From the NCBI GenBank assembly GCA_024693925.1, contig JAILKH010000115.1:1-38024 (forward strand): a stretch of 38,024 nt of DNA, given 5' to 3'. This document shows positions 1,047 through 37,894 of the stretch, piece after piece. Below the pieces are notes generated by a model that was not told where the DNA came from, ran no database searches, and worked only from the letters and a program-made list of their open reading frames with translations. The translations under genes were made by a program, and so were the position numbers. Numbering within the stretch: position 1 is the stretch's first letter; the number at the start of each line of letters is the position of its first letter. Source of the DNA: Lachnospiraceae bacterium. GTDB lineage: Bacteria > Bacillota > Clostridia > Lachnospirales > Lachnospiraceae.

Positions 1047-4001
1047 ATGAAAAGAGGAAAAGTATTAAAATCAGTAGCCGCAGTTTTGGCATCGGTTTCT
1101 ATGCTGGCCGGCAGCTCTACGCAGGCATTGGCTTGTCCGATAGTCAACGCTTGGGGATGTGGTTACAACTATGGAAGTATTTGTGTAACAGGAGACACTC
1201 AGGGTTGCGGGAGTGAAACATCAGGTGATGTGATAGTAACCGAAACCGAAACAGAGATCATTGAAGATGAAGAGATTATTGAAGGCGAGGGCATCGTTGA
1301 AGGTGAAGAGATCGTTGAAGGCGAGGAAATAGTTTCCGAAGATGAAATAATAGACGAGTCAGTTGTTGAAAATGAAGATGAGATCCTTGGGGATGATGAA
1401 GAAGTAATAGAGGAAGAAGCAGAAGAGACAGAAGATATTGCAGAAGATGACAAAGTAAATACTTATCTTGAAGATGGTGGAATGTATTCTGTAGGATATA
1501 TTCTTAACAACTTCAATTTGTTTGTAAAACATGAGATCAAAGATACAAATCATACAATGGGACCTATCGCTGTAGGCGGAGATGCAGAGATCACCTGGTG
1601 GGGACTTAGAGGAGTTAAATTTGATGCCAACAGTTATGTAAAGGGAGTGTTAACTCAGAATGACTGGTATGCTTCCGTTGGTGGTAAAGATTTATATCTT
1701 GGTAATGTAAATAAAGGCAGATATGAGTGGAGAACCTGCAGCTACGACGATGATGATAACGGTGGTTGCTTCGTAGATACAACTACAGGGTACGGTATTC
1801 ATAATACAAAGAATATTTTCTACTCTGATAATTACATTGATTTTGATGAAGCTTTCAATACAATAACAAGTGAAGTTAACGTATTGGATGTTGATTATGT
1901 TATTGACAGAGAACTCTCAACAGATAATTACAGTATTAATTCGGTTAATGGTACGGTAACCCTTAATATCAGATCCGGCAGCACCTACAGCATTGATTCA
2001 TTGGATGGTATAGCAAGAATCAATATATACGGAGCAGATATCCAGTCAGCGGTTGATACCATCCTTATGGTACAGAGCTCTTCGGATGTAAGTATGTTCC
2101 CGGATGTTAAGGTTAACGGAAGTATTCAGGAATCATCAGAATATGGTAAGAATTCAAGTATAGTATTTATACTTCCCAATACAGAAAACATTACAATGCG
2201 TGCATCACACGCTCACTTCGGACATATTATTGCACCTAATGCATTTGTAAACTTCCCCGGTGGTGGTGATTACAACGGATGTATAATATGTAAGGATTTC
2301 CAGAGTGAAAGACAGGAAGGTCATATGTGGCCTTACAACGGTAAGAAATTTGAAGGTGCAGCTACAGGCTTTAAACTTACTAAGACAGTGAACGATAAAA
2401 CACCTGAAGAAAATGAAGTATTTGAATTTACACTTGATGAAGCTGTAAATAATGAATGGGTAAATGTTCAGACAGTAAATAATAATGGTTCGGAAGCTGC
2501 TTTTGATACAATTGCATATGGTATGGCAGATGACGGAAAGCATTATTACAGAGTAAGTGAAACAGGCAATGTTGACGGATATGAAATGGATGACACAGTA
2601 TATCTTGTAGAAGTCAATATTGAAAACGTAGATAATGGTTATGCAATAAATCAGAACAAGACAGAGAGATATTTTAAGGTAGATAAAGATTTAGATGCTT
2701 CTATGTGTGAGGCGGTTTGTTCAGAAGAAAATCTTGTTGATGCGATCAGTTTTAATAATAAGAAGGAATCAGGAACTATCAAGCTTTCAAAGAAGGTTAA
2801 TGTAAAAGATGATGCAAAGACTTCTTACGATTTTACGGTAAAGAATTCAAACGGTGAATATTATAATGAAGAACTTGCTGATTTTACAGCAGATTACAGC
2901 GTAGTTAAGGTCGATGTAAACAGCGAGAAAGTATTATCTGATATCGCGTATGGTACATATACAATAGAAGAAGTTGATGTAACTGATGCTTATGGTAACG
3001 ACTATGAAGTTGTTTATAACTATAACGGAGACAAGAAGGTTTGTGAGGCAGGTACAGAAGACAGAAGTCTGGAAGTTGTAGTCGACGGAGAAGAAGAAGT
3101 TAAAGTCACAAACAACGTATATCCTGAGATTAAGGTTGTAAAGAATTATTGTGATAAAGATGGTAATGCAATAAATGATGGTTCAACTTTCTATGTAGTT
3201 CTTTCAACAACAACAGGTTATTGCTGGTGGACAAAGACTGTATATTATGATCTTGAAGGTAATACATATTGCGGAAAGAAGGTTATTCCCATTAAAGCCG
3301 GTGAGACACTGACCTTTAAGAATCTTGATGCAGGAAGATCATACACAGTAACTGAAACAGATAAGTGCGGTAATGTTCAGTGTTCTACAACAGAGTTTGA
3401 TGTTGTTAAAGGTACAGAAACAGTTTGCTTATCAGATAAGTCTGCTAAAGACTTGATCAAGACAGTAGAAATAAAGAATGTTGCTAAGAAAGTATCCGGT
3501 AGGATCAACATCTTAAAGAAGGATTACAGATACGGTTCATACGTAGACGGAGCTAAGTTTGTTCTTAAGAATGCAGATGATTGCTCGGTAATATATGTTA
3601 CAGGACAGGCAGGTGCATATACATATTCTTCAACTTGTACAGGAATTAAGGAACTTGAAACAAGCTGCGGAGCTCTTTATGTAGACGGTTTACCTTGCGG
3701 TAATTACAAAATTGTAGAAGCTTCAGCTCCTTGCGGATATGAAAAGTGCTGTGAAGTTATCAGATTCTCGGTAACTAAGTCAGGAATTGTAAATTATACA
3801 AAATCTGTATGTGGTTCACTTATTAATTCATCGGTTAAATGCGGTTCTTTCGAAGGAACATATACTGTATATAATAAGCAGAAAACTTCATGCTGCATTT
3901 TCGATAAGAAATATAGCTGCTGCTGGTCTTATAAATGGAATTTCTGCTGCAATACATATGTTAAATGTTATACACCCTGCTTCAGCTTTTGTGGTTGGTA
4001 A
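1047..4001 (+). CDS. Secreted choice-of-anchor-A/CnaB adhesin with Cys-rich tail
   Basis: A large exported surface protein of 984 residues, probably a stalked adhesin. The ATG at 1047 is chosen over one at 1002 because AAGGAGAG lies 6-7 bases upstream and a clean signal peptide follows (MKRGK, hydrophobic core, cleavage after ALA near residue 29). Residues 60-140 are an acidic Glu/Ile/Val linker. Residues about 149-436 match the choice-of-anchor A domain, with an early FNLFVKH and the late pattern GHIIAPNAFVNFPGG...NGCIICKDF. Four CnaB/pilin-like domains follow (about 440-570, 575-690, 690-815, 820-945). Each has a Lys near its start (such as IKLSKKV) and a late Glu in a Y-x-x-x-E setting (YYRVSE, YTIEE, YTVTE, YKIVE), as expected for internal isopeptide bonds. 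No LPXTG motif or C-terminal membrane segment exists. The last 39 residues contain nine Cys and many aromatics. About 35 Cys occur in total. An AxA site directly before Cys leaves a lipoprotein N-terminus possible but atypical. Confidence 0.8.
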   Translation: MKRGKVLKSVAAVLASVSMLAGSSTQALACPIVNAWGCGYNYGSICVTGDTQGCGSETSGDVIVTETETEIIEDEEIIEGEGIVEGEEIVEGEEIVSEDEIIDESVVENEDEILGDDEEVIEEEAEETEDIAEDDKVNTYLEDGGMYSVGYILNNFNLFVKHEIKDTNHTMGPIAVGGDAEITWWGLRGVKFDANSYVKGVLTQNDWYASVGGKDLYLGNVNKGRYEWRTCSYDDDDNGGCFVDTTTGYGIHNTKNIFYSDNYIDFDEAFNTITSEVNVLDVDYVIDRELSTDNYSINSVNGTVTLNIRSGSTYSIDSLDGIARINIYGADIQSAVDTILMVQSSSDVSMFPDVKVNGSIQESSEYGKNSSIVFILPNTENITMRASHAHFGHIIAPNAFVNFPGGGDYNGCIICKDFQSERQEGHMWPYNGKKFEGAATGFKLTKTVNDKTPEENEVFEFTLDEAVNNEWVNVQTVNNNGSEAAFDTIAYGMADDGKHYYRVSETGNVDGYEMDDTVYLVEVNIENVDNGYAINQNKTERYFKVDKDLDASMCEAVCSEENLVDAISFNNKKESGTIKLSKKVNVKDDAKTSYDFTVKNSNGEYYNEELADFTADYSVVKVDVNSEKVLSDIAYGTYTIEEVDVTDAYGNDYEVVYNYNGDKKVCEAGTEDRSLEVVVDGEEEVKVTNNVYPEIKVVKNYCDKDGNAINDGSTFYVVLSTTTGYCWWTKTVYYDLEGNTYCGKKVIPIKAGETLTFKNLDAGRSYTVTETDKCGNVQCSTTEFDVVKGTETVCLSDKSAKDLIKTVEIKNVAKKVSGRINILKKDYRYGSYVDGAKFVLKNADDCSVIYVTGQAGAYTYSSTCTGIKELETSCGALYVDGLPCGNYKIVEASAPCGYEKCCEVIRFSVTKSGIVNYTKSVCGSLINSSVKCGSFEGTYTVYNKQKTSCCIFDKKYSCCWSYKWNFCCNTYVKCYTPCFSFCGW

Positions 4002-4023: not shown

Positions 4024-4056
4024 AAAAAGAGGACATCTCGATGTCCTCTTTTTCTT
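4024..4056 (+). terminator. Rho-independent terminator after the adhesin gene
   Basis: A 12-base-pair stem (arms 4025-4036 and 4041-4052) with a CTCG loop is preceded by an A-run and followed by T-rich sequence. It starts about 23 bases after the adhesin stop codon. Confidence 0.9.
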
Positions 4057-8392: not shown

Positions 8393-11300
8393 GTGGATAA
8401 ATACGAGTATCAGGTTCATGCTGATCAAATAAAAAAGCTTGTAGCTGAAAGAAGATATGCAGAAGCTATGAATATAGCCGATGATATAGATTGGCGTAAG
8501 GTTAGGAGCGTTACCATGCTCCAGATTGTAAGTGAAATATATAAATTTAATAAAAAATATGAAGAAGCAAGGGAGATACTCTTGCTTGCTTATGATAGAC
8601 ACCCTGAAGGGCGTATGATTGTATACGCATTGTGTGAACTCGCTATAAAATTAAAGGATTATGTTCAGGCAAAGCTTTTATATGAAGAATATGTACGACT
8701 TGCACCTGAAGATACTGCAAGATATGTTTTATTATACAGATTATATGAAGAGCTTGATGTTTCCATTGAGGAAAGAATAGATCTTTTGGAAGAGTTCAAA
8801 ATAAAGGATTACAGAGAACGTTGGGCATATGAACTTGCTTTGTTGTACCATAAAGCAGGCCAGGAGACAAAATGTGTTGAAGCCTGCGATGAACTGATAT
8901 TATGGTTTGGAGAAGGAAAATATGTAAAAAAAGCAATGGAACTTAAGATGAAGCATACAAGATTGTCCAAAGAGCAGCAGCTTAAGTATGAGGGTAAAGA
9001 GGAACCTATTCCGGTTGCCGATAAATTTATGAATCGCTCTCAAATGCCGGTACAGCAGATTTATGATACAGACCCAAGAGCCGGGGGCTTACAACAGATT
9101 CCCATGACTCCGTATGATAATAATAACAGTTATAATATGGATGTAAAAGATTCTCTGTTTAATAATCAGTTTGATGCTCAGGTTTCAAATATTTATGGTA
9201 ATGATACGAGGGATGTTCAATATGCCCCGGGAGAAGATGAATTTCAGGATAAAAACGGATTTTCCGGTACAGAAGCTGAAAGTCCGGATATGCAGATTTA
9301 TACTGAACCTGTACAAAAAAATATTCAACATACAACTCAGATGTTATCTACTTCGGAAATAGATAAAATAGAGATACAGCCTGTTAATGTGGGTATGTAT
9401 AATACAATGGATCTGCAAAACGGGTTATCCGAAAATATTAAAAAGTTTTTTGAAAGTGAACAGGCAAAGGACATTCCGACCAATGTAGTTCATAGTGCGG
9501 ATCCCCAGGCATACAGTAAACTATATGAAGAAGATGCCTTTGAAATGACCAACAGTAATGGTCCTGTTATATCTGTAAAGCCTTTGGATCCTTCGGAGAA
9601 AGAATTGGATGAGATTCCGGGAGCGGAAGAGGATGCGCAGATAACTACTTATATGCCTATGCAGGAATCATTTGTCAATAATTCGGAAAATTTATATATA
9701 GATGAAAATCCGGAAACTGAAGAGTATTATGAAGAGCCAAAGCAGGAGCCGGAAGAAACTGTAGAAGAAAGTGCATATGAAGATGAGTTGGAAGAAGAGC
9801 CAAAGCAAGAGCCGGAAGAAGTTGTAGAAGAAAGTGCATATGAAGATGAATTGGAAGAAGAGCCAAAGCAGGAGCCGGAAGAAACTGTAGAAGAAAGTGC
9901 GTATGAAGATATACAGGAAGAAGCTTTAGGGGATACTGAAAAGGAACAGGATAAAGAAATGGATCCAATTATCCGAAATGTTTATGATAATTGGGAAAAA
10001 ATGATCAAGAAAAATGAAGAAAGACGTATTGAGGAAGCAAAATTAGCTTCTTTATTACAGACTTCCGATATAATGGCTCAGCTTAAAGGAGTTTTACCGG
10101 AGATTAATGATATAATGAGTCCGGTACCTTCAAGATCATTAAATAATAAAAAGCCCCTTATTAAATTGGATGAAAGTATCGGTAAAGACACCGGAATATC
10201 CGAAGATCTCAGAGCAAAAGAGATAGATTTTTCAAAAAATTCAGAAGTAACAGATAATAAAGATATTGTTTTAAGTGCTGATTCCGATGAAGATGAAGTA
10301 GAAAAGGCTGTTAAAGCTGCTATCTTGATGCATGACAGTAATTCTGTAAGGGATGATTCACAAAATCATATAATATCAGAGGAAGATACTGATGTATTGA
10401 AGAATGAGTCAAATGAAGAGAAGAAAGAAAAGATTGTAGACGAAAACAGAGCAGGGCTTAAAGAAGAGTTAAAGGAAGAGATAAAAGAAGAACTTAGAGA
10501 AGAGATAAAAGAAGAGATAAAAGAAGAATTAAAAGAAAGATATCAGGCAGAACCGGAAGAGGAGATCGAGGAAGAACCGGAAGAGGAGATCGAGGAAGAA
10601 CCGGAAGAGGAGATCGAGGAAGAACCTGAAGAGGAGATCGAGGAAGAACCGGAGGAGGAGATCGAGGAAGAACCGGAAGAGGAGATCGAGGAAGAACCGG
10701 AAGAGGAGATCGAGGAAGAACCGGAAGAGGAGATCGAGGAAGAACCGGAGGAGGAGATCGAGGAAGAACCGGAAGAGGAGATCAAAGAAGAGTCCGATTC
10801 ATCATATCCTGAAATAGTTGATTTTGCCGATGAAGTTCTGGAAGACGAAGAAGCCAAGGGAAAAACTGAAGAGATTCCGGTAAAAGAAGTGGTATATGAA
10901 CCGGAGATCGAACCGGTGGATATTAAGACTGTCGAAGAAGCAGCTATAACGGAAAATGATAAAAATTCTGATATAAATGATGAATTATATTTAAAGGAAA
11001 TAATGGAGATAGAAGATCCGGATGATGAGGCTTTTAAGCCGGATTCCGGTCAAACAGACAAAGATCAGGATGGATTTTCATATTCTGAAGATGATGAAGC
11101 TGTCGAAAAGGCCGCATTTGAGGTGACTTCGGAACTACCCAAATATCCTTATGAAGGATTGGATGATTATGGTGAAGTCGAAGAAATGGAGATTATCGAG
11201 CAACCGGATGGGCTTGAAGGTATATTAAAAACCGAAGATATGCCCATTGATGAAATAGCAAGGGCAAATTATGAGGCAGGAATTGAATTTGATTATGAGG

Positions 11301-12142
11301 ATATTAATGAGCCTGTTAATGTGCAAAAGGTAAGGGAAGTTGTTTCTAAGAAGCGACCGGGTTATATGAAACTTGAAAAATCACCTGAGAGCAAAAGAGA
11401 GTTTGATGAAGATGAAAAGATCGTGTTTAGAAAAATTGAGCAGATTACCTGGTTAAAAGCTCAAATAGTTGATTGTCTTGATACTATGAGTATGGAGCCT
11501 TCATGCGGAAATGTGATCGTAATGGGGAGCGAATCCTCCGGGAAAAGAAATATTGCAATTAATCTTGTTAAGATCATGCAGTCTACGGATGTAAAATTTA
11601 AAGGTAAGGTGGCAAAAATATCAGGAGTTGCGCTTAATAAGAAGGATATACCTTTAACTATTAAAAAACTTCACAAGGGTGCTTTGATCATAGAAAATGC
11701 CGAAGATCTTACTGCTTCTTCCTTAAGACTTGTAGCGGAAGCTTTGGAATTGGAGAGTGAACCGGTTCTTGTAATAATGGAGGGTGATAAGCAGAAACTC
11801 AGTGAGATTATTGGTTCATCCAAAGAAATAATGGACAGAGTATTTAATGCCCGTATAGATATTAAGGATTATACTATTGATGATCTTGTGGCATACGCTA
11901 AAGGATATGCAGCTGAATTGGGATATGTGATAGATGAGATGGGTGTCTTGGCATTATATAGAAAGGCCGGAGAGCTTCAGACATTGGAGCATAATCCTAC
12001 ACCTGATGAAGTATGTGAAATAGTAGATAATGCCATTAAACATGTTGATAAAAAGAATATGTCACATTTTATGGACCTTTTGCTGGCAAAGAGGTATGAT
12101 AAAGATGATTGTATTATTATAAGAGAAAAGGATTTCGGTTAA
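8393..12142 (+). CDS. Giant TPR / acidic-repeat / degenerate AAA protein
   Basis: An unnamed 1249-residue protein with no signal peptide, so probably cytoplasmic. It starts at a GTG with GGGAG about 7 bases upstream. Residues 1-200 are helical TPR-like repeats (for example YEEAREILLLAYDRHPEG and KLLYEEYVRLAPED). Residues about 200-1000 are low-complexity and very acidic. They include three copies of an EEPKQEPEE..VEESAYED unit (bases 9735-9920) and ten copies of PEEEIEEE (bases 10552-10791). Residues about 1010-1230 resemble an AAA+ module of CbxX/SpoVK type, with a lid-like DYTIDDLVAYAKGYAAELGY. The P-loop GSESSGKR (1045-1052) keeps Gly and Lys1051 but has Arg in place of Ser/Thr. The Walker-B-like strand reads GALIIENAEDL, without a clear DE pair. 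I infer a scaffold or pseudo-ATPase. Its position before glgB gives no firm functional hint. Confidence 0.7.
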   Translation: MDKYEYQVHADQIKKLVAERRYAEAMNIADDIDWRKVRSVTMLQIVSEIYKFNKKYEEAREILLLAYDRHPEGRMIVYALCELAIKLKDYVQAKLLYEEYVRLAPEDTARYVLLYRLYEELDVSIEERIDLLEEFKIKDYRERWAYELALLYHKAGQETKCVEACDELILWFGEGKYVKKAMELKMKHTRLSKEQQLKYEGKEEPIPVADKFMNRSQMPVQQIYDTDPRAGGLQQIPMTPYDNNNSYNMDVKDSLFNNQFDAQVSNIYGNDTRDVQYAPGEDEFQDKNGFSGTEAESPDMQIYTEPVQKNIQHTTQMLSTSEIDKIEIQPVNVGMYNTMDLQNGLSENIKKFFESEQAKDIPTNVVHSADPQAYSKLYEEDAFEMTNSNGPVISVKPLDPSEKELDEIPGAEEDAQITTYMPMQESFVNNSENLYIDENPETEEYYEEPKQEPEETVEESAYEDELEEEPKQEPEEVVEESAYEDELEEEPKQEPEETVEESAYEDIQEEALGDTEKEQDKEMDPIIRNVYDNWEKMIKKNEERRIEEAKLASLLQTSDIMAQLKGVLPEINDIMSPVPSRSLNNKKPLIKLDESIGKDTGISEDLRAKEIDFSKNSEVTDNKDIVLSADSDEDEVEKAVKAAILMHDSNSVRDDSQNHIISEEDTDVLKNESNEEKKEKIVDENRAGLKEELKEEIKEELREEIKEEIKEELKERYQAEPEEEIEEEPEEEIEEEPEEEIEEEPEEEIEEEPEEEIEEEPEEEIEEEPEEEIEEEPEEEIEEEPEEEIEEEPEEEIKEESDSSYPEIVDFADEVLEDEEAKGKTEEIPVKEVVYEPEIEPVDIKTVEEAAITENDKNSDINDELYLKEIMEIEDPDDEAFKPDSGQTDKDQDGFSYSEDDEAVEKAAFEVTSELPKYPYEGLDDYGEVEEMEIIEQPDGLEGILKTEDMPIDEIARANYEAGIEFDYEDINEPVNVQKVREVVSKKRPGYMKLEKSPESKREFDEDEKIVFRKIEQITWLKAQIVDCLDTMSMEPSCGNVIVMGSESSGKRNIAINLVKIMQSTDVKFKGKVAKISGVALNKKDIPLTIKKLHKGALIIENAEDLTASSLRLVAEALELESEPVLVIMEGDKQKLSEIIGSSKEIMDRVFNARIDIKDYTIDDLVAYAKGYAAELGYVIDEMGVLALYRKAGELQTLEHNPTPDEVCEIVDNAIKHVDKKNMSHFMDLLLAKRYDKDDCIIIREKDFG
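9735..9920 (+). repeat. Three-copy 63-66 base acidic repeat
   Basis: Three near-identical in-frame copies of a unit encoding EEPKQEPEE(T/V)VEESAYED, joined by ELE. Copies differ at only a few bases. It lies in the acidic middle of the TPR/AAA protein and probably arose by tandem duplication. Confidence 0.8.
10552..10791 (+). repeat. Ten-copy 24-base tandem repeat coding PEEEIEEE
   Basis: Ten consecutive 24-base units (GAACCGGAAGAGGAGATCGA plus GGAA) stay in frame inside the TPR/AAA protein gene. Copies 5 and 9 share the variant GGAGGAGGAG and copy 4 has CCT, so the variants recur with a four-unit spacing. That suggests a block of four units was duplicated. It is a coding minisatellite, not a CRISPR array: there are no spacers. 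Confidence 0.9.
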
Positions 12143-14259: not shown

Positions 14260-14299
14260 AATAACAGTTAAATAAACATTCTGAATGTGGGAGATGGGT

Positions 14300-17200
14300 A
14301 TGAAAATAGAAACAAATAACCTGCATAATAATAAGAATGTTGACATGGAAAAAATTACATACGGTAACTCTTATCAGAAAAGTACGGTAAAGACAGCCGA
14401 TCTGATGGGAGGAATATCAGTAGACATTTCTGGCACAGTTACGGATAACGCTGCATACGGAATGGGCGAGCTTAAATCGGTCGAGGAAGTAATGCAGGAT
14501 GCAGGGCATAAGGATATAGCCTTACAGAGAAACTATATGGCGGTAATGTCTAATTCTATGTCAGCAGAGGATTTTGCAAAATTACAGGATGAAGGTTTTT
14601 CGGTATCTGATACAGATATTGAAACGCATGTTACTTCTCTGGATAAAATAAAGGTGAAGCTCGCTCAATCGGGTACCATAATAGCGGGTTATAATGATGA
14701 TTTTACGGATGAGCAGATAGATGCTATAGCCGGTACCGATATAGCGGCAGGACAATTAAGAGAGATATTTGCAAAAAGTGATATTCCGTTAAATGAGGAT
14801 AACATAAGGGGGGTCAGGGACGGTTTGGATATGGCGTCAACTCTGCAGCCTTTAAGTGATGATGTGAAAAAATACATGGTCATAAATAATATAGAACCCA
14901 CGGTCGCCAATGTATATAAGGCAGAGCACAGTGCCGGTACGGGTAATGCCAGACAGTCTAAGGGATATTATCGTGACAGTACGGATGGTTACTATGCCAA
15001 AAAAGCCAATGATCTTAATATGGATCAGATAAAGGATCAGGTAGAAAATATTATAAAGAAAGCTTCTCTGCCGGTTAATGACCGGACCATGGAAGAAGCT
15101 GAATGGATAATAAAGAATGGAATACCCATAACGGAACGATCGATTAATATGCTAAACAGGCTGAATGATATTTCTCTTCCTTTATCAGATGAATCGGTAA
15201 TAGACATAGCCGCAGTGGCAATAAATGACGGACGAAGCCCGCTAAACGGCATAATAGATAAAAATGAACCGGATAGTGTAATAGCGGTAAAATTACAGAA
15301 TGAGATAAATTCAATAACAAATGAAGGAATAGATAAAACAGTTTTATCCGGGAAAGAGATCAATTTAAAGAATTTATATGACAGTTCCATAAATGAGGGT
15401 TCTGTTGATGATAATATAAGTACCGGTAATAACAATACATATTCCGAGGATATAATAACAGCCAGAAGACAGCTTGAAGAAGTTAGGCTTATGATGAGTA
15501 CGGAGGCAAATCTTAAGCTGTTAAAAAAAGGGATATCTATTGATACCGAACCATTAAATAAACTGGTGACGGAACTAAAAGAGGCTGAAAGATCCTATTA
15601 TGAGCCGATGCTTTTAAATATAAATGAAAGAGGAGAAAAAAGGGATATTGCTCTTCTGGATGATCGTATAGATATTTATAAGCAGAATCTGGATGTTTTT
15701 GAAAAGTTAAGAACCGTACCGGCGGAAATACTTGGTCGTATAAATACGGGAGCCCGTGATTTTACGGTCAGGAATTTAAGTGAAATGGGTGATCCGCTTC
15801 GTGCAGCCTATGTAAAAGCAGGAAGGTCTTACGAAACACTTATGACTCAGCCCAGATCGGATATGGGGGACAGTATAAGGAAGGCCTTCGGAAATGTTGA
15901 TGATATCCTTAAGGATAACGGTTTTGAATTAAATGATATAAACAGAAAAGCAGTAAGAATACTCGGATATTCGCAGACAGAAATAAATGAAGAGAATATA
16001 AACCGGATGAGAAATGCCGACAGGGCGGTTGAGAGGGTAATGGAACTTATGACTCCGGCAAAAACTCTTGAAATGATCCGGAACGGCGAAAATCCCATGG
16101 ATATAAATATTTATGACCTAAGGCAGCAGCTTGAGCAAAACAGTGAAAATACGGGAACAAATGCCGAAAGATATTCCCGTTTCTTGAGAAAACTTGAGGA
16201 TAATAATGAAATAAATGACAGGGAAAAATCAGCTTTTATAGGTATTTACAGGCTTTTAAGACAGGTTGAAAAGAGCGATGGAAAGCTTATAGGAAACGTA
16301 GTGTCAAGCGGTGAGGAACTGACTCTTAGAAATCTATTATCGGCGTCCAGAAGTAACAGGGCTCGAGGTATGGATGTATCTGTAGATGATGATTTCGGGG
16401 TACTTACCGAGCTTAATACAAAGGGTGTTTCAATATCCGAGCAGATTGACAGTGGTTTTAGGACAGGGGACGGAGTTAAAGTGGAGTATTTGGATTCCCT
16501 GGTCTATGAAGCTCTTAATAAGATAAGTCCGGAGGGAATGATAAAGTCCGGAGTAGATCTTGATGAAACAGTAGAGAAATTCTCAAATGATATAATATCC
16601 GGATATGATAAAGCTCAGGATAACAGACTTAAATTAAGTGAAGATATGGCTTTGTTGGACCAGGCTCGTAATGTAAGTGATGAAGTTATAGAAATGCTTA
16701 GATCCAATGATCAGCCGGTAACCGTGAACAGTCTTCTGGCAGCCTCGGAAATGATGAAAAACAGAGGCGGAATGTTTAAGAATCTGTTTGATGAAAGCCG
16801 TAAAGCCGGTGGACAATCTGAGAACAGACTGGAAAAGGAAGCTTTAGAGCTTGTTGAAAAATTTACATCCGAAGAGTCGGTAAAGGATAGTTATGACAGT
16901 TTGAGAAATGAAGCCGAAAGACTGATAAACAATTCGGTGGAAAAATCCGATAATCTGCTTGATGTGGAGGCATTAAGACTTCTTCATAAGGAGATAGGTA
17001 TAGCCCATTCTTTATCGAGGCAGAATAATTATGAAGTACCGGTGAATATTGACGGTGAATGGACATCAATAAATCTTAAGATAATAAGCGGCGAAGATGA
17101 AGAGGGCAGTGTATCAGCAACCATGCAGACAGATAAATACGGTAAAGTTGCCGCAAAGTTTATTCTTGACGGGCGGGAATGCAACGGATATGTAACATCG

Positions 17201-17431
17201 GACAGGCAGGATAGTGTAGACAGTCTCGGTAATCTTAAGGATGAGCTTAAAGGTTTGATAGAGGATAAAGGTATTTCGGTAAAAGAACTTAGCTATGTAA
17301 GAAATGACAGATTGGATCTGAACAGTTTCGGCGGAAATGAAACTGAGAGAATGTCCGTAACCGATTCGGATCTGTATGAAGTTGCTAAAGCATTTATAAC
17401 TGTGGTAGGAGGAAGAAGATATGAAGATTAA
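14300..17431 (+). CDS. DUF6240-like protein with FliK-like C-terminus
   Basis: A 1043-residue helical protein without signal peptide or membrane segments. Of three nearby ATGs (14285, 14294, 14300) I choose 14300, because GGGAG lies 6 bases upstream and MKIETNN follows directly. It resembles the DUF6240 family of Lachnospiraceae; this assignment is from memory and should be tested. The middle shows loose helical repeats built around phrases such as IPLNEDNIRGV, ISLPLSDESV and SQTEINEENINRM. Residues about 900-1010 have a pattern like the C-terminal domain of the flagellar hook-length protein FliK: KVAAKFILDGRECNGYV, then a helix and GISVKELSYV. The gene overlaps the flagellin gene by 11 bases and carries the flagellin ribosome binding site in its last codons, so production is coupled. 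A role in flagellar export or length control is inference. Confidence 0.6.
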   Translation: MKIETNNLHNNKNVDMEKITYGNSYQKSTVKTADLMGGISVDISGTVTDNAAYGMGELKSVEEVMQDAGHKDIALQRNYMAVMSNSMSAEDFAKLQDEGFSVSDTDIETHVTSLDKIKVKLAQSGTIIAGYNDDFTDEQIDAIAGTDIAAGQLREIFAKSDIPLNEDNIRGVRDGLDMASTLQPLSDDVKKYMVINNIEPTVANVYKAEHSAGTGNARQSKGYYRDSTDGYYAKKANDLNMDQIKDQVENIIKKASLPVNDRTMEEAEWIIKNGIPITERSINMLNRLNDISLPLSDESVIDIAAVAINDGRSPLNGIIDKNEPDSVIAVKLQNEINSITNEGIDKTVLSGKEINLKNLYDSSINEGSVDDNISTGNNNTYSEDIITARRQLEEVRLMMSTEANLKLLKKGISIDTEPLNKLVTELKEAERSYYEPMLLNINERGEKRDIALLDDRIDIYKQNLDVFEKLRTVPAEILGRINTGARDFTVRNLSEMGDPLRAAYVKAGRSYETLMTQPRSDMGDSIRKAFGNVDDILKDNGFELNDINRKAVRILGYSQTEINEENINRMRNADRAVERVMELMTPAKTLEMIRNGENPMDINIYDLRQQLEQNSENTGTNAERYSRFLRKLEDNNEINDREKSAFIGIYRLLRQVEKSDGKLIGNVVSSGEELTLRNLLSASRSNRARGMDVSVDDDFGVLTELNTKGVSISEQIDSGFRTGDGVKVEYLDSLVYEALNKISPEGMIKSGVDLDETVEKFSNDIISGYDKAQDNRLKLSEDMALLDQARNVSDEVIEMLRSNDQPVTVNSLLAASEMMKNRGGMFKNLFDESRKAGGQSENRLEKEALELVEKFTSEESVKDSYDSLRNEAERLINNSVEKSDNLLDVEALRLLHKEIGIAHSLSRQNNYEVPVNIDGEWTSINLKIISGEDEEGSVSATMQTDKYGKVAAKFILDGRECNGYVTSDRQDSVDSLGNLKDELKGLIEDKGISVKELSYVRNDRLDLNSFGGNETERMSVTDSDLYEVAKAFITVVGGRRYED

Positions 17432-18530
17432 TTCTAATATTCAGGCAATGATAGCAGGGAGTGTGCTAAGGTCAAATGAAACAAAACAGTCGGAATCTAC
17501 GGAAAGAATGAGTAGCGGATACAGGATCAATAATGCAAAGGATAATCCTGCAGGCATGGCAATTTCAAACAGAATGAGAGCACAGATAGCAAGTCTTAAT
17601 AAGGCTAATCAGAATGCTTCAAATGCGATAAATGTTGTTGAAACTGCAGAGGGAGCATTATCGGAAATTCAGGATATGGTGCAGAGAATAAGCGAATTAT
17701 CCGTAAAAGCAGGGAATGAAACTAATAGCGCTGAGGAACTTCAGGCAATTCAGGATGAAATAAATGCACTTAATAAGGAGATCGAGAGAATAGCAAATGA
17801 GACGGAATATAATTCCCAGAATCTTCTGGGAGGAGAACAACAGCTTAAAGGATATTCGGATGTAGTAGGGCTGGATGTGATAAATTATGATCCTGATTTT
17901 CCTACGGGAAAAGATTATGAGATAAGTTTTGATAAGACGACCGATTCGGATGGTAATGTAACAATAGATAAGGACAGTATTGTATACAAAGTTAACGGTG
18001 AAGAAGGTGTATGTGATATAGACGTTGTTAACGGAGATAAGATCGTGATCACGAATCCGGACGGTTCCACTCTTTCCCTTAAAGCAGACAGTTCTCTCCC
18101 CGACAGTGTTGCATCAAAGCTTGATATCAACGGAGTCGGCGGTATGAAGATTCAGGTGGGTTCCGCGGAGGGCCAGGAAATAAACCTGGTAATACCTAAG
18201 ATATCTCTTGATAATTTAAGTCTTTCGGGTATAGATGTAAGGGAAGAAAATGGTCCCCAGGATGCAATGGATAACGCAAAAAAAGCTCTTAAATTTGTTT
18301 CGAATGTAAGATCCAGACTGGGGGCATATGAGAATCGTTTTGAAAAAGCGGTATCAAATCTTGATGTTACAACAGAGAATCTTACAAAATCATATTCGAC
18401 GATCAAGGATGTTGATATGGCGGAGGAGATGGTTCAATATACTACCGCACAGGTGCTTGTACAGGCAGGGACATCTATGCTGGCTCAGGCTAATGAACAG
18501 CCGCAGCAGGCACTTCAGCTGCTTCAATAG
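17421..18530 (+). CDS. Flagellin
   Basis: A filament subunit of 369 residues, exported without a signal peptide by the flagellar type III system. The N-terminal D0/D1 helices (residues 1-140) show RMSSGYRINNAKDNPAGMAISNRM in slightly shorter segments, INVVETAEGALSEIQDMVQR and the EYNSQNLL turn. Residues 145-275 are a small beta-rich variable domain. The C-terminal D1/D0 (about 285-369) has ENRFEKAVSNLDVTTENL and ends QQALQLLQ, as in Hag/FliC. It starts at ATG 17421 with GGAGG 9 bases upstream, inside the end of the preceding gene. The N-terminus (MKINSNIQAM) differs somewhat from common MRINHN-type starts, so it may be a minor or alternative filament protein. Confidence 0.93.
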   Translation: MKINSNIQAMIAGSVLRSNETKQSESTERMSSGYRINNAKDNPAGMAISNRMRAQIASLNKANQNASNAINVVETAEGALSEIQDMVQRISELSVKAGNETNSAEELQAIQDEINALNKEIERIANETEYNSQNLLGGEQQLKGYSDVVGLDVINYDPDFPTGKDYEISFDKTTDSDGNVTIDKDSIVYKVNGEEGVCDIDVVNGDKIVITNPDGSTLSLKADSSLPDSVASKLDINGVGGMKIQVGSAEGQEINLVIPKISLDNLSLSGIDVREENGPQDAMDNAKKALKFVSNVRSRLGAYENRFEKAVSNLDVTTENLTKSYSTIKDVDMAEEMVQYTTAQVLVQAGTSMLAQANEQPQQALQLLQ

Positions 18531-32236: not shown

Positions 32237-35200
32237 ATGATACTTAAAAAAAGAATTGCAATAATAATGATCATAGCACTTATCGGAACATCTTTTTTTC
32301 CGGGGGCATATCCTGTGTATGCTGATACTGATCAAATCCTGGTTACCGGTGAAGATAATCTTTTGATCAGTGATGAGATATCTGATCATATAAATGATAC
32401 AGTGATATGTGAGGAGACGGATAATATTGTTGAAATGACAGAGGTTTTAGAACAAGTCGAGATATTGCAAGAAGACAGTACAATCCTTGTTGAAGAGGAT
32501 GTTTCCTTAAGTGATGATAACGTATTGATAGAAAACAGTGATGAATATTTTCCGGACACTTTGGAATTAAGCGGGGAAAGTACCGGGAATAATGTGTCAA
32601 TAAACGGAATTCATTATATGATCACAGATAAAGATTGGAGTGCAACGGTCATTTATTGGGATGGCAAGGGTGTATTGGAGATACCAAGTGAAATAACTCT
32701 GGATAAGAGTTACGAAAGCGACTGGGGAGATGAAGAAACCTATGTAAGGAAGGTTGTTGCAATTGGAAGTGAGGCATTTAAAGATAATTCTGATCTGACA
32801 GGAATTAAAATCCCATCATCTGTTAAAAGTATAAATAAAAATGCATTTCAAAATTGTATAAATCTGGTTTCCGTTGAATTACCATCTGATATGACTCTTT
32901 TGGGTGAGTATGCATTTAATGGCTGTACTTCATTGAACAGTGTTAAACTTCCTGATAAATTGGATACGATACAAATATGTGTTTTTAACGGGTGCACGGA
33001 TTTAAGTTCTATAACTATACCTAAAAATCTTGAATTGAATAAGGTTGTGGTTGATGATGAGCGAAATTATACAAAGGGACCTTTCAGCGGTGTACCAAAC
33101 CTTAAGGAAATCAGATTTGAAGAAGGATTTGATATAATTCCGGCACGTTTATTTACTGCTTGTGATTCTATCGAAAATGTTGATATTCCGGCAGGTGTTA
33201 CAAAAGTACTTGATCATGCATTTATAAATTGTAAAAATCTTAGAAGTGTTACCATGACTGAGGATATTGAAAGTATCGGTGAAGCTTCTTTCCAGAATTG
33301 TACGAGTTTGGAAAAAATAGATCTGTCCAAAAATACAAATAATCTCGGGGTAAGAGTTTTTCAAGGCTGTACTACGTTAAGTGAGTGCAGAATTCCCGAT
33401 AGTGTAGATAATATCGGTTCATATGCGTTTGACAATTGTAAAGGCCTTAAAAGTTTGACCTTTTTTAGTGGTGTCAGCGCTAAATCTAAAAACGGTGTTA
33501 TAGGCGAATATGCATTTAGAAATTGTTCAGCTCTTGAAAGAATTATAATACCTAACAGTTTTAAAGAGATAAAGAGATCTGCTTATGAGAAGTGTACCTC
33601 TTTGGAAAGCATGAAACTTGAAAACAGATATCCGGAAGTGACTTTTGATATTATAATAGGAGACTATGCTTTTAAAGAATGTTCAAATTTGACTGAGGTT
33701 ATTTTTGAAAATAAGATACGTTTAAAATCAATAGGAAAAGAAGCATATAAATTATGTATAAACCTTACGGATTTAACTTTTGGAGAAGAGGTATATTTAA
33801 ATTCAATAGGTGAAGAAGCCTTTTATATGTGTAATAATCTTATAGATATAAATATTCCGAATGATGTTGAATTTATTGGAAGATCAGCATTTGAAAAATG
33901 TTTATCATTAAAGAATGTTACTTTACCAAGAAATTTAAAAAAATTAGGTGCAGCAGTTTTTAGAGAAGATACTGCAATAGAAAAAATAGAAATACCTAAA
34001 AATATAGATACTGTATCGGTATCTAAGGCTACAGATGGTATATTTAGCGGATGTGAGAAACTAAAAATAATAACATTCGAAGGAGGAATCACCAAAATTC
34101 CTGACAATTTATTTTGGGGAACCGGTTCTTTGGTGAATATTGATATCCCTGATGGTGTAACAGAAGTCGGATTAAATGCATTCAGAGAATGTGTAATGTT
34201 AAAAAATGTTAAAATACCCGAGAGTGTAGTGGGTATAGCGGATTATGCATTTTATAAAGATCAGAATATTGTTGATTTAAAGGATGGTTCCGGATTAATT
34301 CCCGAAGGGGTTCAGACTATTGGAAAATACTCCTTTGATGGATGTGAAGCTTTAAACACCCTGATTTTGCCGGACGGTATAGAAAAAATCGGTGAATCGG
34401 CTTTCGCAAACAGCGGAATTCAGATTGCTGTGATACCGGAATCCGCATCCGATATAGGAGCTTCGTGCTTTGAAGGATGTGAAGAACTTAAGGAGATACA
34501 GTTACCTAAGAACCTTAATGAAATAAAAAACAGGCTGTTTTATGATTGCAAAAAGCTTTATAAGGTTAACCTGTCGGAGGATATACTCGGTTCTATAGGT
34601 AATAGTGCATTTTATAATTGTAATGCTCTTGAATCCTTTGATGATTCGGGTAAAATTGATTTTTCAAAATTCAGAGTGCTTAAATCAATTGGAAAAAATG
34701 CTTTTCAGGAATGTGACAGCCTGTCTTCGGTGACTTTGTCGGCAGCTACAGAGAATATCGGAGAATATGTATTTGATCATTGCCAGAAACTATCCGAAAT
34801 TAATCTTGGAACGGGACTTAGTGTGATTCCGAAGAATGCTTTTTCGAACTTAAATTCTTTGGTGAAAATGATAGTTCCCAGAAATGTGATCGAAATAAAG
34901 GCAGGAGCGTTTGAATATGATCCGTCTTTCAGAGAAATTCATATTCCGAAAGAGACAACAAACATAGAACGCGGAGCATTTACAAAGTGTGATGATCTTT
35001 ATACATATGTTGTTGATGGCAGTGAGGCTCATAAGTATTCTGTAAAAGAAGGTATTAAATATGAATTAGAGGTGGTTTATGCAGACAGTATTAATTACCT
35101 TCCGGAAAAGATAAGTATAAATCCCAATGAAACAAACACTCCTTCATTGGAAATTCTGCCGGTCCATTATTCGGTGGATGTAAATTACAGCTCAGGTAAT

Positions 35201-37894
35201 GATGAAATATTTACTGTAGATAAAACGACAGGTAAGATTACCGCGATTAAACCGGGAGATGCGGTATTAAAGGCAAGTATCAGTGCCAATGAAACCGGAG
35301 CTGAAATAGAAGATACGGTTGAGGTACATGTTAAGGTTCCGGTAACTGATATAACATTAAATAAAACCGCTGTTCAGATGAATGTCGGAGAGAGGATCAG
35401 GATCAATGCCACGGTTCTTCCGGAAAATGCGGATAATAAGGAAATCGTATGGACGAGCAGTAATGAAGAAATAGCTTATGTTAATGCAAAAGGAATGATA
35501 TATGCCAAGTCTAAGGGTAATGTATCAATATGTGCCGAATCAAAAGAATATAATATTAAAAAATATTGTAATGTATCCATTACAAGTATACTTAAAGATG
35601 CTCCCCAAACATGGACCGATACGCTTAACAGTCCTACCGTAAGTCCCCTGGCGGGTATCGTTAATAAAGGTACAAGGATCAGTATTAACAGTGAGGCTGC
35701 AGGAGCAAGTATTTATTATACTACGGACGGAAGTACTCCGGTTGCCGACTACACGGGAAGGGTTGCAGGCACAACCAGGCATTATACAATGCCTGTGGTA
35801 ATAAATAAAAATACGACGATCAGGGCATTTGCCATATGTCCGGGATATAAGTATAGCGATGTTGCCGAATATGAGTTCGTTGTGGATGACGGATGGGGTG
35901 ATATTGGTTCGGATCTCAGAAGCCGGTTTTTAAATGATCCGGATAAGGTTCCCGAAGGTTTGTGGTATGTATTTGATGGAGATGATAATTATTATACCCA
36001 ATCCGGTAACACAGGTGTAGTTAAAGAGTATAAGGGAAGCAGTATTACATTTAACAGTGAAATCGGCGTATATTATGGGTGTACAAAACTTATTGAGAAT
36101 CGTGATTATAATATAAGTTATAAGTATAATAAAGCTGTTGCAGGTCTTAATGACAGGGAGGTTCCGACAGTCTCCGTTAAAGGTAAGGGAAATTATAAGG
36201 GTAAGGTTGCTTTTGGCTTTGAAATCAGTGCGGTTGATATTAATAAAGCTGATATAGTATCGGGTACGGAAGCAACGGTTATTTCCGGCAATAAAATAAG
36301 TGAGGTAAAGCCCGTTATTGTCTATAACGGGACCATTCTTAAAGAAAGGATCGATTATACGGTTGTTTACTATAAGGATTCAAAACCGGTTGTTGCGGCA
36401 ACGAAAGTCGGAGAAGGTGTATATACGGCTGAAATAAAAGCAGCCGCAGGATCTGATTATACCGGAGTAATGACTCGGAAAATCATAATAAAAGCAGTTG
36501 AAAATGTTGCCGGTAAATCAGTGGACATGAAGTATACTACAGTAACTCTTCCGGATATCGAATGGAGAAAAGAAGGAGTTGATATTAAAAAGTTATTTGA
36601 TAATTCCGCAACAGACAGTCCGTATGCCATAGTTAAGTATGGTTCTAAGAGCGGTGAGGTTCTTAAATACGGAGTTGATTATACAGTGGATGATATTGAT
36701 ACAACTATATATCCTGATTATCCTGCAGCGGGAAAATATATCGTCAGATTACATGGTACGGCGAATAATTCCTCCGACGGAAAATTTTATGTGGGTGAAC
36801 AGACGGCAACTCTTACCATAAGCGGAATTGATGCATCTAAGATCAGTATCGGCGGAATCAATAAGAAACCTGTATATACCGGTAATGTGATAACATTAAG
36901 TGATCTTAATGATACAGATGGTAAGGAATTTAATGAAGTAACCTTATATACGGGATCAGACGGTGTTAAAACAAAGCTTACGGAAGGAACAGATTATGAT
37001 GTTGATATGTCGGCAGCGACGGATTATGGCAGGTTTTATGTATATTTCAATCTTAAAGGACAGTATACCGGTACAAAGAAGATAAGGATAATTGTTGCAA
37101 AGGCTGATATAAATAAAGCAACTATAAGTACAACAGATGCAACATATTGTAAGTCCGGATCGGTGCCACAGACTTATGTTTCTTTTGATGGTAAAGTTCT
37201 TAAAGAGGGAATAGATTATAAAATATCATACAGCAATAACAGGAAGATAGGTACAGCAAATGAGCCCACAGTTAAATTGAAGGGAATCGGATGTTTTAAA
37301 GGAACGGCTGAATCAACATTCAAAATATACAGTACGGATATTTCCAAACTGGCTCTTTCCGTTAAAGATATTAAGTATAAAGAGGGAAAGAAAGGCAAAT
37401 ACTATAAAAAGACGCTTAGAGTTGTTGATGATGGCAGGACAGTTTCAAAAACCAAAGATATTCTTAAATACAGCTATGGTGATATTAAATATTATAATGC
37501 CGAGACGGGTAAAGAGATTGGTGATGAGGATGCTGTCAATATAGGTACTGTTATAGAAGCCAGAGTAACAATAACTGCAAGGGAAGAAGGCGGATACACG
37601 GGTTCCGGAGTTGTATCGGGCTTATACAGAGTCATTGATCCTCAGAAATATCTAAGCAGCGCTAAGGTTAAGGTAAATGATCTTGTATATGCAAATGGTG
37701 AAGAGGTATCTGTTATCAAATCAAGTGATATTACGGTAACTATCGGAGAAACGGTACTGAATCCATCGGATTATGATATAGTTTCGGTCACCGATAATCG
37801 TTTCCTCGGAACTGCGAAAATTGTTATTGCCGGTAAGGGTGAATATGGCGGCATAAAGAAATGCAGTGTAAAGATCAATAAGAAAGATCTATAG
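32237..37894 (+). CDS. Secreted leucine-rich-repeat (BspA-like) Ig-like surface protein
   Basis: 1885 residues with a signal peptide (cleavage likely after residue 29, PVYA). AAAGGA lies upstream of the ATG. A Glu/Asp-rich stretch (30-115) leads into BspA-type LRR_5 repeats from about 120 to 925, with the recurring pattern AFxNCxxLxxVxLP and I.P..V..IG. A Big_2-type Ig-like domain (about 1033-1115, ITLNKTAVQMNVGERI) is followed by a chitobiase/FN3-associated-like domain (about 1133-1217, GASIYYTTDGSTP and TTIRAFAICPGYKYS). The rest holds about six divergent beta repeats of roughly 100 residues marked by G.DY.V.Y phrases (for example GIDYKISYSNN, NRDYNISYKYN). It should be an extended adhesin or binding protein. 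No LPXTG, C-terminal membrane helix or SLH domain is visible, so anchoring is unexplained. It has its own promoter and terminator. Confidence 0.9.
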   Translation: MILKKRIAIIMIIALIGTSFFPGAYPVYADTDQILVTGEDNLLISDEISDHINDTVICEETDNIVEMTEVLEQVEILQEDSTILVEEDVSLSDDNVLIENSDEYFPDTLELSGESTGNNVSINGIHYMITDKDWSATVIYWDGKGVLEIPSEITLDKSYESDWGDEETYVRKVVAIGSEAFKDNSDLTGIKIPSSVKSINKNAFQNCINLVSVELPSDMTLLGEYAFNGCTSLNSVKLPDKLDTIQICVFNGCTDLSSITIPKNLELNKVVVDDERNYTKGPFSGVPNLKEIRFEEGFDIIPARLFTACDSIENVDIPAGVTKVLDHAFINCKNLRSVTMTEDIESIGEASFQNCTSLEKIDLSKNTNNLGVRVFQGCTTLSECRIPDSVDNIGSYAFDNCKGLKSLTFFSGVSAKSKNGVIGEYAFRNCSALERIIIPNSFKEIKRSAYEKCTSLESMKLENRYPEVTFDIIIGDYAFKECSNLTEVIFENKIRLKSIGKEAYKLCINLTDLTFGEEVYLNSIGEEAFYMCNNLIDINIPNDVEFIGRSAFEKCLSLKNVTLPRNLKKLGAAVFREDTAIEKIEIPKNIDTVSVSKATDGIFSGCEKLKIITFEGGITKIPDNLFWGTGSLVNIDIPDGVTEVGLNAFRECVMLKNVKIPESVVGIADYAFYKDQNIVDLKDGSGLIPEGVQTIGKYSFDGCEALNTLILPDGIEKIGESAFANSGIQIAVIPESASDIGASCFEGCEELKEIQLPKNLNEIKNRLFYDCKKLYKVNLSEDILGSIGNSAFYNCNALESFDDSGKIDFSKFRVLKSIGKNAFQECDSLSSVTLSAATENIGEYVFDHCQKLSEINLGTGLSVIPKNAFSNLNSLVKMIVPRNVIEIKAGAFEYDPSFREIHIPKETTNIERGAFTKCDDLYTYVVDGSEAHKYSVKEGIKYELEVVYADSINYLPEKISINPNETNTPSLEILPVHYSVDVNYSSGNDEIFTVDKTTGKITAIKPGDAVLKASISANETGAEIEDTVEVHVKVPVTDITLNKTAVQMNVGERIRINATVLPENADNKEIVWTSSNEEIAYVNAKGMIYAKSKGNVSICAESKEYNIKKYCNVSITSILKDAPQTWTDTLNSPTVSPLAGIVNKGTRISINSEAAGASIYYTTDGSTPVADYTGRVAGTTRHYTMPVVINKNTTIRAFAICPGYKYSDVAEYEFVVDDGWGDIGSDLRSRFLNDPDKVPEGLWYVFDGDDNYYTQSGNTGVVKEYKGSSITFNSEIGVYYGCTKLIENRDYNISYKYNKAVAGLNDREVPTVSVKGKGNYKGKVAFGFEISAVDINKADIVSGTEATVISGNKISEVKPVIVYNGTILKERIDYTVVYYKDSKPVVAATKVGEGVYTAEIKAAAGSDYTGVMTRKIIIKAVENVAGKSVDMKYTTVTLPDIEWRKEGVDIKKLFDNSATDSPYAIVKYGSKSGEVLKYGVDYTVDDIDTTIYPDYPAAGKYIVRLHGTANNSSDGKFYVGEQTATLTISGIDASKISIGGINKKPVYTGNVITLSDLNDTDGKEFNEVTLYTGSDGVKTKLTEGTDYDVDMSAATDYGRFYVYFNLKGQYTGTKKIRIIVAKADINKATISTTDATYCKSGSVPQTYVSFDGKVLKEGIDYKISYSNNRKIGTANEPTVKLKGIGCFKGTAESTFKIYSTDISKLALSVKDIKYKEGKKGKYYKKTLRVVDDGRTVSKTKDILKYSYGDIKYYNAETGKEIGDEDAVNIGTVIEARVTITAREEGGYTGSGVVSGLYRVIDPQKYLSSAKVKVNDLVYANGEEVSVIKSSDITVTIGETVLNPSDYDIVSVTDNRFLGTAKIVIAGKGEYGGIKKCSVKINKKDL

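Follow-up and report, generated by a model that had tools for sequence, protein, structure and literature searches.

In the 38,024-nucleotide stretch of a gut-type Lachnospiraceae bacterium analyzed here (contig JAILKH010000115.1 of assembly GCA_024693925.1; hereafter the window), one gene encodes a choice-of-anchor A (CAA) adhesin that ends in a short tail rich in cysteine, lysine and aromatic residues. The tail maintains this composition in five species, the adhesin carries Cys at positions that are free of Cys in the giant adhesins of the same genus, and the protein has no standard anchor. The adhesin is a genuine variant, specific to its lineage, within a known family of adhesins, and its unusual chemistry may be of the disulfide type. 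The best explanation of these features is that thiol-based (disulfide-type) self-association holds the adhesin at the surface, a reading that we advance tentatively.

The last 39 residues of the protein (residues 946-984; codons 3882-3998, in frame), which run from KTSCC to FCGW, contain nine Cys, six of them arranged as three CC pairs. Cys makes up 1.09% of the 15 other plus-strand open reading frames (ORFs) of the window, and at this baseline the chance of at least nine Cys in 39 residues is P ~3e-10. The highest Cys count per 39 residues is three in those 15 ORFs and two in nine giant-adhesin sequences. The translation thus confirms the tail composition, nine Cys in the last 39 residues with CC pairs, that an earlier inspection of the DNA letters (the sequence-only reading) had described. 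The same reading had claimed that LPXTG and PEP-CTERM sorting signals are missing, and the absence of an LPXTG or membrane-segment end is borne out as well. No LPXTG-like motif occurs anywhere in the window protein, and its last 80 residues contain no hydrophobic stretch of 19 residues (maximum Kyte-Doolittle value of 0.54, versus 2.63 in the giant relative L147). A C-terminal LPXTG motif or hydrophobic stretch is absent from all five orthologues, the window protein included; a loose LPXTG pattern matches LPNTS inside the CAA domain of the G036 and G021 orthologues, far from the C-terminus. The lack of a known sorting signal does not exclude the protein from the CAA family because the C-terminal end varies within that family. 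Its PF20597 domain scores 69.9 bits, above the curated cut-off of 23.8 (E 4.3e-19), which places the protein in the family. TIGR04215 was matched in both orthologues scanned (56.7 and 52.8 bits versus a cut-off of 29), and the window protein itself gave no TIGR04215 match and no NCBIfam match at E 0.1.

In a sample of 37 genomes of the genus, the own genome included, the protein is present in five (the own genome, G009, G021, G032 and G036). The window protein shares 60-61% identity with the four orthologues over the first 573-575 residues. The orthologues are shorter (760-773 residues from Met) and have neither the second middle domain nor a SpaA domain. All five tails, 40-53 residues long (50-53 in the four orthologues), contain 9-12 Cys (18-23%), 5-7 Lys or Arg, 0-2 Asp or Glu, 5-11 aromatic residues and no His, and terminate in Trp or Phe. 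In the distant pair G009-G036, identity is 33% in the tail, 82% in the CAA domain and 73% in the DUF7601 domain. In tail evolution, composition persists while sequence turns over. The close pairs (G036-G021 and G009-G032) retain 20 of the 21 tail columns that hold Cys, and in five of these the codon has changed synonymously; of the other tail columns, 67 of 82 are retained. Because the Cys positions are loose and the Cys number is kept, cross-linking fits the tail better than one defined site does.

The enrichment in Cys is not confined to the tail but extends into the upstream CnaB-like domains, a point absent from the sequence-only reading. The giant SpaA-repeat adhesins of the genus contain 73 Cys in 29,836 residues (0.24%; counted over nine sequences, of which several are truncated at contig ends, with L001 overlapping contig C67 of G009 and thus not fully independent). 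The nine Cys positions of the window SpaA domain are occupied by Cys in none of 201 aligned giant-adhesin cells, and the six of the DUF7601-like domain in none of 34; for both CnaB-like domains together, 15 positions give 0 of 235 cells, the rows of this comparison not being independent. When the window SpaA domain is compared with one L001 domain, the Cys counts are 9/130 versus 2/126 (Fisher P = 0.06), a less clear contrast than that given by position across all aligned repeats. The enrichment reaches the N-terminus as well: the window signal peptide resembles those of the giant adhesins, and the place of its mature N-terminal Cys is held by Ser, Thr or Ala in the seven giant-adhesin signal peptides whose starts were read. 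In the window protein one Cys pair lies at alignment columns 1105/1145, in the other four at 1108/1146; this apparent joint shift is no more than suggestive but fits a relocated disulfide.

Three giant SpaA-repeat adhesins also carry a CAA domain (L043 on G009 C67, L036 on G000 C94 and L046 on G036 C123) and are very poor in Cys. Their open frames of 2,660 to 7,167 residues run off the contigs before the C-termini, and for this reason we can only infer that the tail replaced a sortase-type end. Among eight stretches taken from other members of the genus, two displayed a giant SpaA-type C-terminus (L146 and L147, in G010 and G029), which consists of a membrane segment followed by basic residues, in relatives for which a CAA domain is not established. 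Sortase matches occur in all five genomes that encode the tailed adhesin (6-8 each at E <= 0.001, most above the cut-off).

The sequence-only reading had also raised the possibility that the tail is a general attachment signal, to be sought on unrelated proteins of the Lachnospiraceae by a profile search, and had named restriction to orthologues as the outcome that speaks against it. A profile (A1) built from the five tails retrieved only the five orthologues from the 37 genus genomes at E <= 5e-15. Eighteen weaker genus matches (L115-L132) had E values between 0.018 and 5.4, and each of them overlaps a longer ORF read in a different frame or strand. Three other matches below 0.01 were obtained in 397 family genomes (E 0.005-0.008) and one below 0.001 in 391 class genomes (9.5e-4), none being the tail of a secreted protein. 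All 22 weak matches were read: L134 and L183 likewise overlap longer ORFs of a different frame or strand, L135 falls within a frame of 321 residues resembling an AraC-type regulator, and L133 is a 37-residue frame. Within the reach of the profile, which could miss a tail of like composition with other spacing, the tail was not found on unrelated secreted proteins of the genus, family or class. Because no convincing carrier was encountered beyond the five orthologues, which is the outcome that the sequence-only reading had named as contrary, the tail seems not to be a general sorting signal, and the proposal is not supported. No description of such a bacterial Cys-rich tail was found in the literature covered, which was incomplete.

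How would such an adhesin be held at the surface? Its dispersed and loosely placed Cys, its basic and unstructured end and the lack of a usual anchor fit thiol-based self-association, as in CdeC. The adhesin would be exported by the Sec pathway, after which the dispersed Cys may form disulfides within and between molecules. The basic tail would perhaps be guided to a neighboring molecule by the acidic linker at that molecule's N-terminus, and the adhesin could thereby oligomerize and be kept in an insoluble surface layer or fiber while the CAA domain binds a polymer. The cross-linking idea of the sequence-only reading therefore survives in part: the composition and the missing anchor are borne out and a thiol link is possible, if unproven, but a role as a general signal is not supported. 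In a broader form of the proposal, a Cys/Lys/aromatic tail replaces the sortase anchor in an apparently non-sporulating Gram-positive genus with Cys-poor giant adhesins and locks the adhesins into a disulfide-linked polymer, selection acts on Cys density rather than position, and the protein is one of several independent CAA fusions to thiol-rich assembly regions. This broader form is speculative, and we consider it unlikely.

Several observations weigh against self-association. Conservation of Cys over other residues is not significant in the close pairs (Fisher P = 0.18), nor is it when the DUF7601 domain is added (P = 0.56). The aligned giant-adhesin SpaA repeats carry eight Cys at other positions, and the tail is disordered in structural models (predicted local distance difference test (pLDDT) score of ~30). 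A DsbA-family match was obtained in none of the five genomes (8 of 14 controls match), a search that did not include other thiol oxidases. The habitat is probably reducing and would work against disulfides; the source of L001 is given as goat rumen. Many low-GC Gram-positive bacteria keep Cys out of exported proteins. Furthermore, no partner protein for the tail is known, although partners were looked for only via the tail profile. Our confidence in self-association, and in its broader form, is also lowered by the truncation of the CAA-bearing giant adhesins ahead of their C-termini.

The main rival is a metal-thiolate role, given the absence of a DsbA match and the probably reducing habitat, in which thiols would be stable. 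The Cys of the tail and domains would stay reduced and bind soft metals such as Zn, Fe or Cu, stabilizing the adhesin or bridging molecules. The CC pairs of the window tail and the CxP units that recur in that of G009 are consistent with such a module, but the number of Cys (9-12 per tail) and their spacing vary by lineage, His is absent from all tails, and a profile search of the Protein Data Bank (PDB) at E <= 5 gave a single match, a folate receptor whose E value of 4.8 marks it as noise. We consider this role unlikely, and the three remaining explanations are weaker than it. In the first of these, electrostatic retention, the tail, being basic and aromatic, would adhere to anionic polymers of the wall or to glycans of plants or mucin, and Cys would only compact it. 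The net charge of about +4 to +7 and the aromatic residues of all five tails, with no other anchor seen, agree with this explanation. It leaves the Cys of the CnaB-like domains and the N-terminus unexplained, and we judge it quite unlikely.

An N-terminal lipid anchor was offered as a competing explanation in the sequence-only reading, which had placed a Cys directly after an AxA site. The Cys is indeed there: judged by eye, the cleavage site reads ALA/C (residues 27-30), and the predicted mature N-terminus is Cys30. In all five orthologues, a site of the AxA or VxA type is immediately followed by Cys, and the acidic linker could span the wall if a lipidated Cys30 were the anchor and the tail had another role. 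A loose lipobox pattern fits four of the five and a stricter Gram-positive one fits two, but the classic [LVI][ASTVI][GAS]C fits none, and all three patterns fail on the window protein. Pro occupies position +2, and because the seven giant adhesins have Ser, Thr or Ala at the site, an ordinary cleavage site for signal peptidase I is more probable than lipidation. A lipid anchor may still be present but is improbable.

Equally improbable is neutral decay, in which a SpaA repeat was lost and the tail, its remnant, expanded as low-complexity sequence without function. The tail starts at the point where a further SpaA domain opens in the giant adhesin L001, and the first tail residues are similar to that strand. 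We gave this explanation more weight because the Cys conservation test was not significant. Opposed to it are the 18-23% Cys content of the tails in five species, the retention of tail Cys in close pairs despite synonymous change and the gain of Cys in the adjoining folded domains.

Besides thioether peptides of the SCIFF type, a purely hypothetical option, three further candidates were considered for the tail. A sequencing error or frame slip is an unlikely source because the tail is in frame, a hairpin follows the gene and Cys-rich tails occur in five genomes. A known small Cys-rich fold was not recognized, with no Pfam match for any of the five tails at E 5 and only noise in the PDB. A spore-coat protein is disfavored: the protein has a signal peptide, and SpoIVA_ATPase (PF09547), a single sporulation marker, was matched in none of the five genomes (2 of 14 controls match, including B. 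subtilis; one is above the cut-off). The adhesin is thus probably not a spore protein.

Features of the CAA adhesin gene and its surroundings in the window
Feature	Position	Strand	Description and evidence
CAA adhesin gene	1047..4001	+	984 aa, 35 Cys; ORF/translation, Pfam, orthologues in four other genomes
Signal peptide, residues 1-29	1047..1133	+	ALA/C cleavage site judged by eye
Cys30 and acidic linker	1134..1484	+	117 residues: 43 D/E, 1 K/R
Choice-of-anchor-A domain	1485..2351	+	PF20597 pAdhesive_15, best stretch residues 152-425
Middle isopeptide-type domains	2352..3125	+	Alignment; second domain absent from four orthologues
DUF7601/CnaB-like domain, 6 Cys	3126..3482	+	Pfam match below cut-off; CnaB pilin fold in model
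SpaA (CnaB) domain, 9 Cys	3483..3878	+	Pfam SpaA; alignment with giant-adhesin repeats
Cys-, Lys- and aromatic-rich tail	3879..3998	+	40 aa: 9 Cys, 11 W/Y/F, 5 K/R, 1 D/E
Terminator-like hairpin	4024..4053	+	13-pair stem, T tail, directly 3' of gene

The reading frame is taken from ATG 1047 to the stop codon at 3999-4001; a further in-frame ATG, the mechanical ORF start, lies upstream at 1002. Between 600 and 4200, five terminator-like sites were found versus 1.2 expected. In the region of the middle isopeptide-type domains, FctA (PF12892) was matched in two orthologues. Pfam SpaA matches residues 818-914 with 61.6 bits (cut-off 23.1), and the C-terminal domain accordingly belongs to the SpaA/CnaB group. 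A model of residues 686-984 (299 residues) is fair, with a mean pLDDT of 62, but only one of five models exceeded 40; the full-length model reaches a mean pLDDT of 48 and is poor. A Foldseek search of the 299-residue model against the PDB retrieved the pilins GBS52 and LGG SpaA (E down to 2.6e-8), with template modeling (TM) scores of only ~0.3 over the whole two-domain model, and the single CnaB domain 8bdw_H with a TM score of 0.80 normalized by target length.

In all five genomes, tatD and ksgA are found downstream of the gene, as read from neighboring ORFs. A hybrid histidine kinase is encoded between the adhesin gene and tatD/ksgA in four of them and is missing from G021. Each of the five genomes contains one to three CAA matches. 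A BLAST search (E 1e-3) of the same locus in 29 other genomes with a ksgA match gave no CAA hit, although seven of the 29 stretches (L084, L085, L088, L103 and L107-L109) end ~1.5 kb or less upstream of tatD and are uninformative. Elsewhere in the window, a 1048-residue DUF6240 protein (14285-18530) overlaps with its end the start of a flagellin gene, a 1249-residue ORF (8393-12142) has no Pfam match at E 0.001, and a 1885-residue BspA-type leucine-rich repeat protein (32237-37894) contains Big_2 and chitobiase C-terminal type domains.

The Cys-rich shorter adhesin, with its Cys in the tail, the folded domains and the N-terminus, points to surface holding by thiols that needs neither sortase nor lipid. 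How thiols are oxidized or used in a bacterium that lacks a DsbA match then becomes a question of interest. Related proteins place the adhesin in a wider context. CAA matches occur in 37 of 397 Lachnospiraceae genomes at E <= 1e-5 (48 matches in total), and 29 of the 46 matches outside the own genome were read, of which 20 reach a stop codon and nine run off the locus. Four of the 20 complete proteins end in an LPXTG-like C-terminus (L155, L166, L175 and L182), and L172, which runs off its locus, displays such a motif too; L165 and L173 have other membrane-segment C-termini. Eight complete CAA proteins (L157-L164) contain 17-44 Cys, mostly in Cys-Pro (CPxCP) repeats, and L167, which is cut off, looks like them. 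Fewer Cys are found in L171 and L176 (12 and 13) and in L154, L156, L169 and L170 (4-8). L157-L164 and L167 share with the window protein a CAA domain and a dense Cys region, but they differ in their CPxCP repeats, in their other C-terminal domain and in the lack of a signal peptide on inspection by eye. Their common C-terminal region has no Pfam match in those scanned (L158, L160 and L161), and the tail profile at E 0.01 in the family search matched four genomes, none of them theirs. They are perhaps spore-surface proteins, which is a guess. The CAA domain has been joined to unrelated Cys-rich regions more than once, and the fusions in these eight complete proteins, like that in Acanthamoeba Jonah(1) lectins, count in favor of self-association.

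Compared with the choice-of-anchor A family at large, the window protein is alike in its CAA domain, signal peptide and variable C-terminus but has a Cys-rich tail in place of an LPXTG-like or membrane C-terminus. Its two C-terminal domains match structures of CnaB/SpaA pilins, a group considered here together with fibrillar adhesins, and one of them matches Pfam SpaA; it departs from the pilins in its many added Cys and lack of a sorting signal. The actinobacterial pilins FimP and SpaA are known to have single disulfides in their CnaB domains, and the available part of that report describes neither a comparable Cys density nor a Cys tail (PMC3485203). CdeC, CotY and ExsY, self-assembling proteins of the spore surface whose oligomers depend partly on disulfides, share with the window protein the trait of a Cys-rich surface protein, a likeness of description rather than sequence, but the window protein has a signal peptide and SpoIVA was matched in none of the five genomes. 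CdeC (9% Cys) is a Cys-rich exosporium protein that self-assembles (PMC7677010). The Acanthamoeba Jonah(1) lectin combines a CAA domain with a Cys-rich region, binds cellulose and is located in the cyst wall (PMC6541295). It is eukaryotic, its Cys-rich region is N-terminal to the CAA domain, and it too is likened to the window protein by description, not by sequence. Unrelated Cys-rich regions stand beside CAA domains both in Lachnospiraceae and in Acanthamoeba cyst walls, which makes the idea of thiol-based surface holding testable across groups.

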